Assembly (NCBI GenBank): GCA_034521495.1 | Contig: JAXHMK010000009.1 | Location: 248,001-312,000, forward strand | Origin: Balneolaceae bacterium | Lineage (GTDB): Bacteria > Bacteroidota > Rhodothermia > Balneolales > Balneolaceae | Direction: 5' to 3' | Length of the DNA: 64,000 nt | Shown here: positions 18,249 through 24,705 of the stretch, piece by piece | How positions within the stretch are numbered: the first letter of the stretch is position 1 | Layout of the letters: each line of letters begins with the position of its first letter | Made by a program: the position numbers and the translations under genes | The notes under the pieces: generated by a model | Database searches by the model: none | What the model saw: only the letters and a program-made list of their open reading frames with translations | What the model was told of the DNA's origin: nothing

Positions 18249-19244
18249 TTATTTCTTCCAGTTGACCTTCTTCCAAAGAATCCAGATCCCGATCAAAACA
18301 AGCGGTACACTTAACAGCTGTCCCATATCCAGAAGAGATCCTTCAAGGAAATCTGCAAGTGTTTGCTTTGTGAATTCAAGGAAAAACCGGGCTCCAAACA
18401 AAACAATCAAAAAGGTTGCAAATAGTGATCCTTCCGGTGGTTTTTGATCATATTTTTTATAGAGAGCGATCAACAGAATCAATACAAAAAGACAGAGGAT
18501 TGCTTCATAAAGCATGGCTGGATGACGCGGAAGCATATCAATTTTTGTAAACACAACAGCCCATGGAAGATCTGTAGGAACACCGATAATTTCTGAATTA
18601 AAGAAGTTGCCAATTCGAATAAACATACCGCCGATGGCCACTCCGGGAACCACACGATCGGCCACCCACAAAAAAGTAACTCCATGGGTTTTCTTGGCAA
18701 ATAGGTACATCGCTATTATAATCCCGATAGCCGCTCCGTGCGATGCCAGTCCGCCGGTCCAGACTTGTGGAATCAGATGCACATTCCGCAGGTAAAAATC
18801 TGCTTCATAAAAGAAAACATGTCCAAGACGAGCACCTATAATTGTGGCCACAAGAACATACATCAATAGACGATCCAGTTCTTCAACTGACCTGCCTGCA
18901 TCTTTGAACATTTTAAGGCCAATCATATAACCGGTTCCAAAAGCGCAAACCCACATTAATCCATACCAGCGCGGCTGAATGGGGCCAATAGATGTTAAAG
19001 TTGGTGATTCAATAATCAGAAAAGGAAGTTGACCAATTGCAAGAGCCCCGAGAATAACTCCCCATATTTTCCAGGCCTCCGGTTCCTGTTTATTCGATTC
19101 CGGTTTAATCTGTTGGAAACCAAAATAGATTAAAATAAACCCAAGGACGAGTCCCCAGACAGATAGTGGAAAAGGCAGGTTAAATTCGGGAATGGTAAAG
19201 ATGATGGGATCCATTTCCCAAGTGAAATAATTGCTCGAATTCAT
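18249..19244 (-). CDS. lgt: Prolipoprotein diacylglyceryl transferase
   Basis: 331 residues, about seven membrane helices. Lgt landmarks are GARLGHVFFYE, GGLASHGAAIG (the H-G motif region) and the signature GMFIRIGNFFNSEIIG, plus PRHPAMLYEAI and FGARFFLEF. It transfers diacylglycerol to the lipobox Cys of prelipoproteins in the inner membrane, the first step for lipoproteins such as those encoded at 9.9, 27, 58.8 and 60.4 kb here. Start ATG 19244 adds ten residues before a second Met (MDPIIF); either start is possible. The downstream DUF5995-like gene follows by 9 bp. Confidence 0.94.
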   Translation of the reverse strand: MNSSNYFTWEMDPIIFTIPEFNLPFPLSVWGLVLGFILIYFGFQQIKPESNKQEPEAWKIWGVILGALAIGQLPFLIIESPTLTSIGPIQPRWYGLMWVCAFGTGYMIGLKMFKDAGRSVEELDRLLMYVLVATIIGARLGHVFFYEADFYLRNVHLIPQVWTGGLASHGAAIGIIIAMYLFAKKTHGVTFLWVADRVVPGVAIGGMFIRIGNFFNSEIIGVPTDLPWAVVFTKIDMLPRHPAMLYEAILCLFVLILLIALYKKYDQKPPEGSLFATFLIVLFGARFFLEFTKQTLADFLEGSLLDMGQLLSVPLVLIGIWILWKKVNWKK

Positions 19245-19395: not shown

Positions 19396-21390
19396 TTATT
19401 CAGAATCGGAATCTGATTTTGACCTGAACATATTTGCAACAAAGTACACAGCTCCTAAAACAGCAACAGCTATCAGTGCGTACCATGTCCAGTTCATTCC
19501 TTCTTTTCCAGGCTGTTCGGCAGCATCCATTTGCTGTTGGGTGGCATCTTGCTGAATTTGGCTTTCTTCCATTTCAGCATCAGTTGTATCTGTATCGGCC
19601 TGGGCTATCTGTTCGTCAATCTCCCCATCAGTATCTGTTTGTGTTTCGGGTTGATCGGGTTCAATATCAGCAGATGCAATCTCTTCAGAATCGTCAGGCG
19701 TGACTTCCTCATCAGGTTGCGGCTGTTCTTGATCCGGATCCGGCTGTACAGGATCTTTCTCTTCAGGTTTTGGAACTTCAAGGTCTGCTGTATCAGGACG
19801 GGTTACATCATCCCGAACATGAGCCATGCCCTGGCTTGTGCTGTCCAGTTCTTCGATTGAATCAACAACTCTTAGTGAATCGGCTCTTTCAAAAACATCT
19901 TCCTGTTTCTCTTCAACTCCCGGTTCTTCCACTTCTGCATCAGCAAGCATCTCATCAGCCGGTTCGGCTTCAGGAGTGGCCTCAAAAATAGTATCGGTTA
20001 ACGGTTCAGGTTCTATAGTTTCATCTTCGAAAGAGACATCTTTTTCACTTTGAACTCTTTTTGTAATCTCTTCAAACTCTTCTGATTCAGGTTCTGCAAT
20101 ATCAAGTTGTTCCGGGTTTACCTGGGATTCTTCTACAATCTGTGTTAAAGCATCGGCCTCTTCAATTTCCTCGGGTGCATCCGGTACAAGAACAATTTCC
20201 ACCGGCAAGGGTTGGGGTAACTGCCTGACGCCAAGCATTTCACCCTGTACCCGGACTCTTTGAATCGCTTTTGTTCGGGGTCGTTCATCTCTTTTAGCTG
20301 CGTCAGCCGGCTGTCTTGTTTCTTCGGCGATAGTGGGTTGTTGTTCTTCCGTTTGTTCTGCAGCAAGCGCACTTTCAAGTTCGGCTACCTGTTGTTGCAG
20401 TTCACGAATTTGTTCAGCCATCTCCTCATTTTGAGGTGCTTCTTCGTCCTGCTGTTCTTCTAACTGCTCCGCCAACTGTTCGTTCCGCTGTTTCTCTTCA
20501 AGTAAAGCCAGTTCAAGCGAATCAATTCGTCCGCTTAGTTCGTCGATCTCTTCCTGAAACATTTCTGACTGACGAGCCAGGAGCTCTTCGAGGCGTTCGA
20601 ACATATCACGTTCAGGTGGCGGCTCGGGAGCAATCACACGAGATACGGTTGGCCAATCGGCATCCACGCTACTTGAGCCAAACTTAAACTGTATGCCAAA
20701 AGTAACGGCACTCCATGAATTGGAAATTTCAGATGACCCGCCAAGATTCAGCAGTTCGCCAATGAAGTTACCATCGATAATATCTCTGCTGGCTGAGGAG
20801 TATTCATATTGAGCATATGAATCGATTCGATTTCCGAGGTTGAAGCGAATTCCACCGCCGAATGTTGTAAAAAAGTTTGAGAAAGGATGGTCGGCGGGAG
20901 TTACATCCGAATTCATAATTTCCGGAGCTTCTGAATCAATGGATACATCGTTAAACATCAACCCGGTACCAAAACTACCAAATAGATTAAAATTTTTAGC
21001 CGAAGCTCCAAAGATACGAACAAGGCTGAGTTGAGTTGTCAGAGAAGTGGTAACATAGTTGTTATTGAATGTAAGAGCATCGTCTGGAAAAATGTCACTA
21101 AGGAAAGAAAATTTTCCAAAGACTACATTTGTTTGAAGAGCAATTTCGGGAGTGGCAACATACCGAATATTGAATCCAAGAGTATTATTAAGCCGTTCCT
21201 GGAATTCAAAATTCGCATCCACCGAGGATTGAAAAGCAGAACCGAGATCTAAATGACCGGTTGTAACGGCCCCCATTATTCCGATACTCAGACGATTGGG
21301 TTCCTCCTGGCTTGATTGAGCCGATATCTGTCCAATAGCTCCAAAAGCCAAAAGAAAAGCGCTAAACGCTAATTTAACCCATTGACCCAT
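19396..21390 (-). CDS. Outer-membrane beta-barrel protein with coiled coil, long acidic linker and C-terminal membrane helix
   Basis: 664 residues. Order of parts: Sec signal 1-24 (cleavage near QISA); a beta-barrel-like domain about 28-238 with amphipathic strands (NRLSIGIMGAVTTG, TLGFNIRYVA, VTFGIQFKFG); a Glu/Gln-rich coiled coil about 262-345; an acidic, Pro/Glu/Asp/Gln-rich stretch about 405-630; and a hydrophobic helix 634-654 followed by a short charged tail (RSKSDSDSE). No OmpA peptidoglycan domain is visible. An outer-membrane barrel plus a terminal helix that would normally insert in the inner membrane suggests a periplasm-spanning tether, or a C-terminal sorting tag. It appears to stand alone. 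Function unknown. Confidence 0.65.
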   Translation of the reverse strand: MGQWVKLAFSAFLLAFGAIGQISAQSSQEEPNRLSIGIMGAVTTGHLDLGSAFQSSVDANFEFQERLNNTLGFNIRYVATPEIALQTNVVFGKFSFLSDIFPDDALTFNNNYVTTSLTTQLSLVRIFGASAKNFNLFGSFGTGLMFNDVSIDSEAPEIMNSDVTPADHPFSNFFTTFGGGIRFNLGNRIDSYAQYEYSSASRDIIDGNFIGELLNLGGSSEISNSWSAVTFGIQFKFGSSSVDADWPTVSRVIAPEPPPERDMFERLEELLARQSEMFQEEIDELSGRIDSLELALLEEKQRNEQLAEQLEEQQDEEAPQNEEMAEQIRELQQQVAELESALAAEQTEEQQPTIAEETRQPADAAKRDERPRTKAIQRVRVQGEMLGVRQLPQPLPVEIVLVPDAPEEIEEADALTQIVEESQVNPEQLDIAEPESEEFEEITKRVQSEKDVSFEDETIEPEPLTDTIFEATPEAEPADEMLADAEVEEPGVEEKQEDVFERADSLRVVDSIEELDSTSQGMAHVRDDVTRPDTADLEVPKPEEKDPVQPDPDQEQPQPDEEVTPDDSEEIASADIEPDQPETQTDTDGEIDEQIAQADTDTTDAEMEESQIQQDATQQQMDAAEQPGKEGMNWTWYALIAVAVLGAVYFVANMFRSKSDSDSE

Positions 21391-21524: not shown

Positions 21525-24500
21525 TTAAGATCCGTCAAGCAAATTTCTTAATACATTAGAGGCACCATCTCTGATATAATCCCTGACGATTTGATCAACT
21601 TTGGAAGTATCAGGACCAACCTTCGGTGAAGCTGTTGTACCTGTTATCTGTATCGGGACTGCCATTCTGCCATCTTCAAGTTGAAGTGCATCTGCCGCTC
21701 TTCCGGATATAACTGTTGCAATCCCTTTTTTGAATCTTTCAGGTAGCAAGAGGGTCGCTTTATAATCAATTTTATCGGTGACCATATTTAAGCTTCCGTT
21801 CAATTCAAGTCCAAGATTACCGCTGGTCAGATTAAAGTTTTGTAAGGTCATGATCTCATTATCCATCGTAAAGTCTGCATTCCAGCGGTCGAGTGTAAGT
21901 GATGTGAGTTCCGGTGTTTTGAGGAACTCGGCAATTTTAGCCTGGATTGGATGGCCGGCAAGCCTCACTTTGCTCATTCCAAAAGTTCCGCTGGCATCGG
22001 CGGTTGAAATATCGGGGGAAAGATTTGGTTGAAGCTGAGCTGCATAATCTACATCAGCACTAAATGTTCCGGTAATATATTGATGAATGGTACTTTTGGG
22101 GCCAAGAAATCCGGTATCTCTGAAAAATGATTTTGCTTGCAGGCTATCGAGGTTTCCCGAAAACGAAATGCTTGTGTTAAGGGGGCCTGTTACCGTCCAC
22201 TCCATCTCTCCTGTGGCTTCTCCATCAAACATTTGTGCGGTAGCATTCGAAACGCCGATCTCGCCGGGAGTCATTCGCCCGTTACCGGTAAGATTAGTGA
22301 TGGAAAGGCCAAAAATCTGAAGTTCGCCAATTTCAGACCGAACAGACGCTGTAAGTTCAGGAAGCTCGATGGGAATGGGTTCTTCATCAGTTTCCTCTTC
22401 CCAGTCTATCATCTCGTCTACATTTAATAAACTACTTGTGTACGTACCGTTTACGGATGGCATCGTGGATGATTCTTCAGCTAAAAAGCTCATGTAATTT
22501 TGAAGAGCACCCTCCAGTTGAATGTCTGATTCTCCCAAATTCATCGAGAATTGTTCAAGGTTCATTTGATTCGGTTTTGCACTCATCCGCCCGGAAAGTT
22601 GGGTGATGGGCAGCGGAAGCGAGTCGCCTCTTGCACTTACATTATCAACTTCAAGTGAGCCATCCAGAGCTATGTTCTGCATATTTCCAACCGGTCCGCG
22701 TACATTCAGGTTCAATACGGCGTTTCCGGTTAGTTCCTGGATCATCGGTTCAAACGAGTAGTAAGAGGTGATACTGCTGAATGCGGCATTTCCGTCAAAT
22801 GTCAGGTTAATGTTTGGCTCGTCACTCAGGTAATCTGTAACTGATCCTGTCATTGCGAGAGCGTTTTCTCCACTGGTAAATCGAGCTTCAGAAATCGTTA
22901 ATTGCCGTCCCTGAGCCTGGGCTCGAAACGTGAAGTCCTCTAAAGGATTCACAAGAGATTTATGCGAAATATACCCATTCGTCAGATCAATGGTTCCGCG
23001 CTGCAGCACTGTCTCAAGTTGATCGGGGTCGGGCTGACCTTTCAGTGCAACTTCTGCAATCAATTTTCCGCGCATTTGCAAGGTATCTTCATCAATTGGG
23101 TAGAAATTTTTGATGGTTGCAAGGTCAAAGTTAACGTTTGAAACCACATCCACTGTTCTCTGATTTTCATCCAGCGGATTCAGGATAGTCCCGGAAAGGT
23201 TGAACTGATTTGTTGCGGCCGTAAATCCCGATTCGGCAATATCGATTCGGTTTTGGTCGGCTTTGATTCTTGCATTAATCGCTTCAATAGCATTTGGTAC
23301 ATCTGCGTATTTGAGGTTTCCATCAGCCAAAATAAATTCGCCGGAGAATTGAGCATTTTCAAAATCATCCATACGTCCGTTTGCAGATGCGTCGAGGTTT
23401 AACTGACCGCTAAGACGTTCGAGCCCCAGATCCTGGATAGGGTAAAAACTGCTCACCGTCGCCAGGTTGATATCGCCGGTTACATCGAGCGTGAAAGATG
23501 CATTTTCCTCGAGAGGCTGTTTGATTTGTCCGGAACCGCGAAGATGATTCTCACCGGCTTCGGCGCTAAATTGGTCAATGGTTGCCAATTCATTATTCAC
23601 GTTTGCAGAGATGTTGATATTCTGAATTGCTTCGGGAAGGTCGGGATTTTGGAGAAATCCATCATTCACACCAATGGTAACATTAAAGTTTGGCAAAGAT
23701 TCTTCCGTAAATGCTCCGTCTATATTTCCTTCGAAAACAAGTGACCCACGGGTGTTTAATCCACTTAGCTGATCCTCATATTCAGGGGGAGCCAGTCTCA
23801 GAAGTTCACCAAAATTATCTGAATTTGAGTTAAAGTTGAGTGAGACTTCAGGTGCCTCACCACTCCAATTGGATACGGATCCTGTGAGATTTAACGCGAG
23901 CCCGCGGATTGAAAAAGTGCCTTCGGAAAATGTTAGAACCTCATTTTCCATGTCCAGGGTTGAGGTTTGCTCCATACTAAGGGCCAGATTTTCAACATAG
24001 TTGGTTTCACCGACAGAATAGGAGAGAGAGGCTAATTCTGCAGCAATTGTACTTTCGATGATATCTGAAAATGTGAGGGTGATATTTGCATCTAAATCTT
24101 CGAGATGAGCTTCTGAGTTTGAGGTTTGATCTGCATAATGGATGGATCCATTTGTCAGCTCAAAACCGGAAATTGAAATGCTGCCCGATTCCTGAGATGT
24201 TGTGGTGTCGCTTTCGAAGGATTCAAATAAAAAATCTATATTGGTTGTAGAATCGGCCCGAACTGTGTAATAAACAGTGGGTTGCCGAACGTTTAAATTT
24301 GAAATAGAGATTTGGTCACCAAACAGGCTGAAAAAATCAAGCGAGAGTAAAATTTCATCAACCGTGGCAATGGGGTCTCCTTCCGGATCCGGAACTTGGA
24401 TACTTCCGAGCTCTACACCAAAGCTTGGAAATGTTCGGAAGAATGTGATAGACATATTCTCAACCTGAACATCACTTCCGGTGGCACTACGGACTTTGGG

Positions 24501-24608
24501 TAAAACGGTTTCTTTCAGTCTCTCGTCAGTGAAATATAGATTCAGGCCAACCAGTGCCAGAATCAGAAAGAGGAGAATACCTGCAATAATCTTTAAAAAA
24601 GTCTTCAT
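21525..24608 (-). CDS. AsmA-family protein
   Basis: I chose the ATG at 24608, which starts right at the N-terminal membrane helix (MKTFLKIIAGILLFLILALV), giving 1027 residues; an in-frame upstream start adds 11 residues. After the helix comes the AsmA N-terminal pattern (LPKVRSATGSDVQVENMSITFF, FPSFGVELGSIQV) and long runs of repeating beta segments with Asn/Ser-rich turns, ending in the AsmA C-terminal region (GTFGMSKVRLAGHPIQAKI, LTLDRWNADFTMDN). AsmA-like proteins form long beta-grooves that bridge the periplasm and are linked to phospholipid transport or outer-membrane assembly. The role in this organism is inferred from family only. Confidence 0.85.
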   Translation of the reverse strand: MKTFLKIIAGILLFLILALVGLNLYFTDERLKETVLPKVRSATGSDVQVENMSITFFRTFPSFGVELGSIQVPDPEGDPIATVDEILLSLDFFSLFGDQISISNLNVRQPTVYYTVRADSTTNIDFLFESFESDTTTSQESGSISISGFELTNGSIHYADQTSNSEAHLEDLDANITLTFSDIIESTIAAELASLSYSVGETNYVENLALSMEQTSTLDMENEVLTFSEGTFSIRGLALNLTGSVSNWSGEAPEVSLNFNSNSDNFGELLRLAPPEYEDQLSGLNTRGSLVFEGNIDGAFTEESLPNFNVTIGVNDGFLQNPDLPEAIQNINISANVNNELATIDQFSAEAGENHLRGSGQIKQPLEENASFTLDVTGDINLATVSSFYPIQDLGLERLSGQLNLDASANGRMDDFENAQFSGEFILADGNLKYADVPNAIEAINARIKADQNRIDIAESGFTAATNQFNLSGTILNPLDENQRTVDVVSNVNFDLATIKNFYPIDEDTLQMRGKLIAEVALKGQPDPDQLETVLQRGTIDLTNGYISHKSLVNPLEDFTFRAQAQGRQLTISEARFTSGENALAMTGSVTDYLSDEPNINLTFDGNAAFSSITSYYSFEPMIQELTGNAVLNLNVRGPVGNMQNIALDGSLEVDNVSARGDSLPLPITQLSGRMSAKPNQMNLEQFSMNLGESDIQLEGALQNYMSFLAEESSTMPSVNGTYTSSLLNVDEMIDWEEETDEEPIPIELPELTASVRSEIGELQIFGLSITNLTGNGRMTPGEIGVSNATAQMFDGEATGEMEWTVTGPLNTSISFSGNLDSLQAKSFFRDTGFLGPKSTIHQYITGTFSADVDYAAQLQPNLSPDISTADASGTFGMSKVRLAGHPIQAKIAEFLKTPELTSLTLDRWNADFTMDNEIMTLQNFNLTSGNLGLELNGSLNMVTDKIDYKATLLLPERFKKGIATVISGRAADALQLEDGRMAVPIQITGTTASPKVGPDTSKVDQIVRDYIRDGASNVLRNLLDGS

Positions 24609-24705
24609 AAATAGTGTTTTCGGGTTTATTAAAACAAACAATTAACAGGTACATTTGTTCCATAAACCAATGATATATTAACTGAATATACTCTTTTAAT
24701 TGAAT

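Follow-up and report, generated by a model that had tools for sequence, protein, structure and literature searches.

The window, by which we mean the whole stretch of 64,000 nucleotides that was analysed, encodes a protein with a predicted outer-membrane domain and a predicted inner-membrane helix in one chain, both read from sequence and structure model. The most likely reading, to which we give somewhat better than even chances, is that the protein is an OmpA-derived tether between the outer and the inner membrane. The peptidoglycan-binding C-terminal domain of an OmpA-type protein would have given way to an acidic spacer followed by a stop-transfer helix. Sec would export the chain, BAM would fold the barrel into the outer membrane, and the helix would remain in the inner membrane, leaving the tail on the cytoplasmic side. 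The coiled coil and the flexible linker would cross the periplasm, and a single polypeptide would tie the outer to the inner membrane without a wall-binding domain. The localisation, the simultaneous insertion in both membranes and the mechanical role of the tether are what we infer here.

The order of parts given in the earlier note (signal, barrel, helix, acidic linker, C-terminal helix, tail) is borne out by the sequence and the model, Table 1, and the linker, said there to have about 230 residues, measures 276. The hydrophobic stretch of the signal peptide starts at residue 5. The AlphaFold2 model was built from an alignment of four sequences and is of low confidence (mean pLDDT 49.2), which weighs against the tether. 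A promoter and terminator scan gave two promoter-like sites, below the shuffle mean of 4.6.

Table 1. Features of the barrel-to-helix gene and its neighbours, in positions of the window.
Feature	Position	Strand	Basis or remark
Barrel-to-helix gene	19396..21390	-	664-aa ORF, ATG start; stop 19396-19398
Signal peptide, residues 1-25	21316..21390	-	Read from sequence; ends ...QISAQ, without lipobox
OmpA-type 8-stranded beta-barrel, residues 31-238	20677..21300	-	AlphaFold2, Foldseek, VIA-align, Pfam match below cut-off
Last barrel strand TFGIQFKF, residues 230-237	20680..20703	-	Fits beta-signal pattern
Long helix / coiled coil, residues 263-356	20323..20604	-	AlphaFold2 model
Acidic, probably disordered linker, residues 357-632	19495..20322	-	D/E content and low pLDDT
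Conserved linker island, residues 375-406	20173..20268	-	25/32 identical to G011
Conserved linker island, residues 499-546	19753..19896	-	34/48 identical to G011
C-terminal hydrophobic (putative inner-membrane) helix, residues 637-655	19426..19482	-	Model, hydropathy, conservation
C-terminal tail, 9 residues	19399..19425	-	13 in G011; 74-159 in five orthologues
Upstream neighbour, AsmA/YhdP-family	21525..24641	-	Pfam YhdP E 6.6e-23, AsmA E 1.7e-16; synteny
Downstream neighbour lgt, prolipoprotein diacylglyceryl transferase	18249..19244	-	Pfam LGT E 1.7e-69; synteny

As judged from the model, the N-terminal part is an OmpA-type eight-stranded barrel. The predicted strands cover residues 33-44, 68-78, 83-96, 109-124, 134-152, 171-184, 189-200 and 225-237, with a pLDDT of 28-76 in blocks of ten residues. 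A Foldseek comparison of this barrel with the PDB finds OmpA (9fzd, E 4.0e-8; 1bxw, E 7.5e-7), and a model of OmpA takes the top Foldseek rank (E 3.2e-8). Alignment with VIA-align gives a Z-score of 15.1 both for E. coli OmpA (1qjp, rmsd 2.4, 134 residues) and for OprF (4rlc, rmsd 2.5, 132 residues). The Pfam family OMP_b-brl matches the protein with E 2.3e-5 and 25.1 bits, under its cut-off of 28.7. The BAM beta-signal follows the pattern polar-x-Gly-x-x-aromatic-x-aromatic, and G232, Q234, F235, K236 and F237 (G-x-Q-F-K-F) are invariant in all six barrel-bearing orthologues. The barrel claimed earlier is found in the structure prediction, whose eight strands match OmpA, and its placement in the outer membrane is supported by inference, from the OmpA fold and the fit of the last strand to the beta-signal. 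The C-terminal helix lies outside the barrel, preceded by all eight strands. Its inclusion as a barrel part was rejected, since the barrel is already complete upstream of it in the AlphaFold2 model and the structure alignment.

Two relatives in the same genome, of 410 and 415 residues, are 37 and 38% identical to the window protein. They have the signal, barrel and coiled coil in common with it and end in an OmpA domain (PF00691; Pfam E 4.3e-25 and 2.9e-25). This domain has no match in the window protein or the four other full orthologues at E-values up to 1, Pfam gives no match to the SPOR domain (PF05036) in the window protein, and the Pfam scan agrees with the claim that it has no peptidoglycan-binding domain. 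Across the barrel relatives the C-terminal module varies, with an OmpA domain in three and SPOR in five according to Pfam; further relatives seem to end in SPOR by reading of the sequence. The helix occurs in 0/31 other barrel relatives that were read: no 19-residue stretch past residue 230 has a mean hydropathy of at least 1.6 (maximum 1.41). The window genome has twelve OMP_b-brl matches, and among the eleven whose ORF ends were compared, reading shows a helix of this kind within the last 60 residues of the window protein alone. A tree of 30 barrel sequences separates the six barrel-helix proteins, including the G017 copy, from the rest with support 100. The wall-binding C-terminal domain of an OmpA-type protein seems to have been swapped for a spacer and a helix. 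The earlier description of the protein as unlike OmpA is correct for the C-terminal half and wrong for the barrel, which is that of the OmpA-type paralogues in its own genome.

The predicted long helix behind the barrel has a pLDDT of 70-86 in the blocks of residues 271-350, and 55 and 46 at the ends. Heptad enrichment over residues 263-356 is weak, being equalled by 254 of 5000 shuffles, and for 326-356 alone it is equalled by 3330 of 5000. The best 42-residue heptad stretch in 263-312, a region picked after the whole-helix test, is equalled by 14 of 1000. Among solved structures, a search by sequence returned two spectrin chains that align with the coiled coil (E 0.039 and 0.071). Matches to the defence-system protein PbeC (PADLOC, E 3.2e-5, residues 237-360) and to TolA (NCBIfam, E 0.003, 16.8 bits against a cut-off of 59.45) were rejected and taken as coiled-coil similarity. 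The linker consists of 31% D/E and has a pLDDT of 29-48 in the blocks over 361-630. Identity between the window and G011 proteins reaches 82% for the barrel, 68% for residues 247-356 and 81% (17/21) for the C-terminal helix, residues 633-653; for most of the linker it is 28-33%. Within this otherwise fast-changing acidic linker two islands are conserved, 375-406 with 78% and 499-546 with 71% identity; they are possible partner-binding segments.

The C-terminal segment 637-655 has a mean Kyte-Doolittle hydropathy of 2.05, a level that 23 of 20000 shuffled copies of residues 357-664 reach, and the modelled helix covers 633-654 with a block pLDDT of 46-64. Among the seven orthologues with an available C-terminus this hydropathy ranges from 1.94 to 2.44. 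In 7/7 orthologues the helix has acidic residues ahead of it and one K/R or more among the 15 residues behind it, agreeing with a C-terminus-in topology; the net charge of these 15 residues ranges from -1 (window) to +5. Against the tether stand the weak charge bias of the window protein, with two K/R after the helix, one before and a tail net charge of -1, and a naive insertion-scale sum that is positive for the window (+1.0) and G011 (+1.7) helices and lies between -0.9 and -2.4 in the five tailed forms. After export by Sec, a hydrophobic stop-transfer segment as a rule stays in the inner membrane. The inner-membrane placement supposed for the helix in the earlier note would fit such a segment behind a signal peptide.

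The spacer between barrel and helix has 390 residues in the window protein (G000), 369 in G011, 269 in G019, 308 in G020 and 301 in G015. With the longest proline-free stretch taken as helix and the remainder as random coil, by a polymer estimate, its relaxed reach is crudely 24-33 nm, of the order of the periplasm. For the window protein this gives roughly 25 nm, far more if stretched, in keeping with the idea that its 390 residues could cross the periplasm. The longest proline-free stretch has 59 residues in the window protein, 49 in G011 and 147-155 in the three full tailed forms, 22-23 nm if helical; these lengths are rough, as the 94-residue model helix of the window protein passes through a proline.

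An alignment of six orthologues was searched against 128 genomes of the order. Helix-bearing forms are present in seven of these genomes, all from one genus (28 genomes), which is probably Rhodohalobacter, judging by the named relative G015 (Rhodohalobacter sulfatireducens WB101). The restriction to one genus, within the order searched, counts against the tether. Besides the window genome, seven genomes of the genus contain an orthologue: four full forms (G011, G015, G019, G020), two C-terminal parts at contig edges (G010, G016), and one barrel. The last, in G017 (L037:9808-10581, L076:3899-4672), has 258 residues with the barrel only, followed by lgt, and is a natural truncation or an assembly fault; G017 and G020 are Balneolaceae metagenome bins. 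Such a barrel without linker and helix speaks against the tether, which would be dispensable there unless the gene is decaying or the assembly at fault. A weak match in G118 (E 3.9e-4) covers the coiled-coil part only, in a 995-aa frame. A peptide-pattern scan of a named genome collection gave three relatives among 45 candidates, and a degenerate helix pattern, of little information, matched the window gene only.

The gene lies between the AsmA-family gene and lgt in 6/6 unbroken loci (the five full forms and G017), and lgt adjoins it in both contig-edge cases. The AsmA family functions in lipid transfer, and this position would suit a helper of the neighbouring AsmA-family protein, holding the membranes together where the AsmA bridge works. 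The helper would not be required, because AsmA and lgt adjoin without the barrel-helix gene in G022 and G026, and we regard this role as unlikely. The sorting-tag alternative in the earlier note fits the short tails of the window and G011 proteins; the C-terminal helix would then serve for processing or sorting, and its removal would leave an outer-membrane protein whose periplasmic arm is free. The genome has three rhomboid-like matches, below the rhombosortase cut-off, and cleavage by a generic rhomboid is conceivable. However, the rhombosortase model also matches below cut-off in 14/14 control genomes, the genome has no exosortase match and no rhombosortase above cut-off, and no PEP-CTERM, GlyGly-CTERM or other tag family is among the NCBIfam matches of the window protein. 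Five orthologues moreover carry 74-159 residues past the helix with a common motif, and the tag is disfavoured to the point of being improbable. We also see little chance that the outer membrane houses both barrel and helix, or that the protein stays caught at the inner membrane, its barrel unfolded. Against these readings stand the normal inner-membrane fate of a stop-transfer segment and the last-strand pattern kept by the barrel in 6/6 orthologues. A precedent for the placement of both in the outer membrane is Omp-alpha of Thermotoga, an outer-membrane protein whose stalk ends in a C-terminal transmembrane helix (PMC9388160).

The long tails are found in G010, G015, G016, G019 and G020, and all five contain the motif Y.[VM]PEH[ST]. 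In G015 and G020 an actin-like gene (337 aa) lies immediately ahead of the barrel-helix gene on its upstream side, also between the AsmA-family gene and lgt, and in G010 an actin-like gene fragment adjoins the AsmA gene at the contig edge. It is next to the barrel-helix gene in two genomes and probably in a third. In G019 and apparently in G016 it is located elsewhere in the genome; in G019 (L091:7066-9801) it adjoins an OmpA-type barrel gene (Pfam OmpA E 4.1e-25). The family is present in 28 of the 195 relatives searched. Within the genus it is found in 5/5 tailed genomes, in 0/3 with a short or truncated form (G000, G011, G017), the window genome having no match to the actin-like protein, and in 2/20 others (G005 and G009; G027, checked separately, has none). 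No barrel-helix gene was detected in G005 and G009, and there (L048, L050) the actin-like gene adjoins the gene of an outer-membrane protein that looks like Omp85 by reading. Fisher tests give p = 2.1e-4 (5/5 vs 2/23) and p = 0.018 (5/5 vs 0/3) for species that lack independence: G016 and G019, and likewise G010 and G020, seem closely related, leaving few independent events, and some genomes are down to 57% complete. By its flanking genes G015 belongs with the window genome (85-87% identity, tree support 100), while by barrel identity the window goes with G011 (78%) and G015 is distant (55%); for the barrel, an AU test rejects the flanking-gene topology (p 1.5e-4). Because barrel and flanking genes are discordant in G015, the allele was probably exchanged at this locus. 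The actin-like gene may have come along with it, and linkage alone could account for its arrival.

The assignment to the actin-like proteins comes from Pfam ALP_N, which matches the G015 protein with 34.5 bits and a distant member (L072) with 49.9 bits, above the cut-off of 26.3. The G020 and G019 proteins, 72-73% identical to that of G015, match MreB-like_C only, with 26.6 and 25.2 bits, just under the cut-off of 27.8. A profile of 13 members matches the solved ParM 8x1i with E 5e-4. In actin-fold proteins the motif G[LIV]D[ILM]GN is normally near the N-terminus. Here it is at the C-terminus in 13/13 aligned sequences and in 22/22 full-length members, which were picked by a pattern among 30 loci, several being near-identical; seven loci were not picked and one is truncated where its contig stops. 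When the end is placed in front, ALP_N scores 47.3 instead of 34.5 bits and 55.9 instead of 49.9 bits, and the match opens at profile position 1, where it had begun at 17 and 18. The C-terminal stretch of the profile aligns weakly with the N-terminus of an Hsp70 (E 0.028). Because of the motif position, the end-to-front scores and the Hsp70 alignment, the family looks circularly permuted. The loci with the apparent permutation, with a phosphate-1-type GLDIGN at the C-terminus, are L036:11240-12250, L035:14424-15434 and L044-L073. A scan of a viral collection found no relative of the actin-like protein, and a literature search found no report of a circularly permuted actin. A bactofilin-like gene lies within about 1.5 kb flanks in 14 of the 30 loci (L049, L051-L055, L059-L064, L072, L073), three of them the BLAST queries themselves, with one further weak short match; the one such neighbour scanned with Pfam matches Bactofilin with E 9.7e-18, suggesting that the two genes may form a two-part cytoskeletal module.

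It is possible, though doubtful, that the tailed orthologues act across the envelope as linkers of an actin-like filament, and that the window form, a reduced descendant or allele, has no such partner. In the cytoplasm the tail would bind the actin-like protein; a rod of about 150 residues would span the periplasm and the barrel would hold the outer membrane, while the window form would keep only the tether. The adjoining gene in G015 and G020 and the fragment near the locus in G010 favour this, as do the 5/5 against 0/3 distribution, the motif common to all five tails, the proline-free stretch of the three full tailed forms and the discordant G015 barrel, as if exchanged, perhaps with the actin-like gene. 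On the other side are the few independent events left by the close-relative pairs, the location elsewhere in G019 and apparently G016, G005 and G009 with the actin-like gene alone, and the window genome without a match; adjacent genes can also be transferred together without interacting. The fuller proposal, that a Rhodohalobacter OmpA-type protein became a single-chain linker that runs from the outer membrane across the inner membrane to a circularly permuted actin-like filament and that the window copy lost tail and partner, is slightly more doubtful still. For the window protein we keep the outer-to-inner-membrane tether as the preferred reading.

A literature search found no report of a comparable tether, nor of OmpA in Rhodohalobacter. 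The principle of a single-chain bridge is already known, with other parts and order, in long MlaD and VirB10 (PMC10665443, PMC6362355). The long MlaD of Veillonella parvula combines an inner-membrane helix and an outer-membrane barrel in one chain, supported by fractionation (PMC10665443). Its helix is N-terminal, followed by an MCE domain and a C-terminal barrel, and it serves lipid trafficking, whereas the window protein has the reverse order; the same source describes the barrel as absent from MlaD of the FCB group (PMC10665443). No MCE family is among the Pfam or NCBIfam matches of the window protein at E-values up to 1. VirB10 of type IV secretion is a single protein inserted in both membranes, and its outer-membrane part is described as an alpha-helical channel in a secretion machine, unlike the window barrel (PMC6362355). 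The window protein has no Pfam or NCBIfam match to VirB10, and its neighbours are the AsmA-family gene and lgt instead. In VirB10 the helix comes first.

The outer-membrane tethers OmpA and OprF have, like the window protein, an N-terminal eight-stranded barrel and a periplasmic C-terminal extension; the window protein differs by its acidic linker and inner-membrane-type helix, with no OmpA or SPOR domain found. SlpA/Omp-alpha proteins likewise place a coiled-coil stalk on an outer-membrane anchor, some with an OmpA-like eight-stranded barrel, but they are outer-membrane-to-wall connectors with the parts in opposite order and an SLH domain that binds the cell wall (PMC9388160). Pfam gives no match in the window protein to SLH, the domain that marks SlpA/OmpM connectors. 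For the tailed forms only, a likeness exists to the Glt/Agl system of Myxococcus, where a link from MreB via an inner-membrane platform to envelope Glt proteins has been proposed and one Glt protein has a weak OmpA-like match; this system consists of many proteins and a motor, not one chain (PMC3169522).

Outer-membrane tethering has been seen mainly as a connection to peptidoglycan, as with OmpA, Pal, Lpp and SlpA. In one genus, and beside intact OmpA paralogues, an exchange of wall binding for an inner-membrane anchor would be a natural experiment on a tether that bypasses the wall. Should the tailed forms bind the actin-like protein, a single chain could transmit force or position from the cytoplasm to the outer membrane, and such a linker would be a bacterial counterpart of the complexes that join the cytoskeleton to a far membrane.
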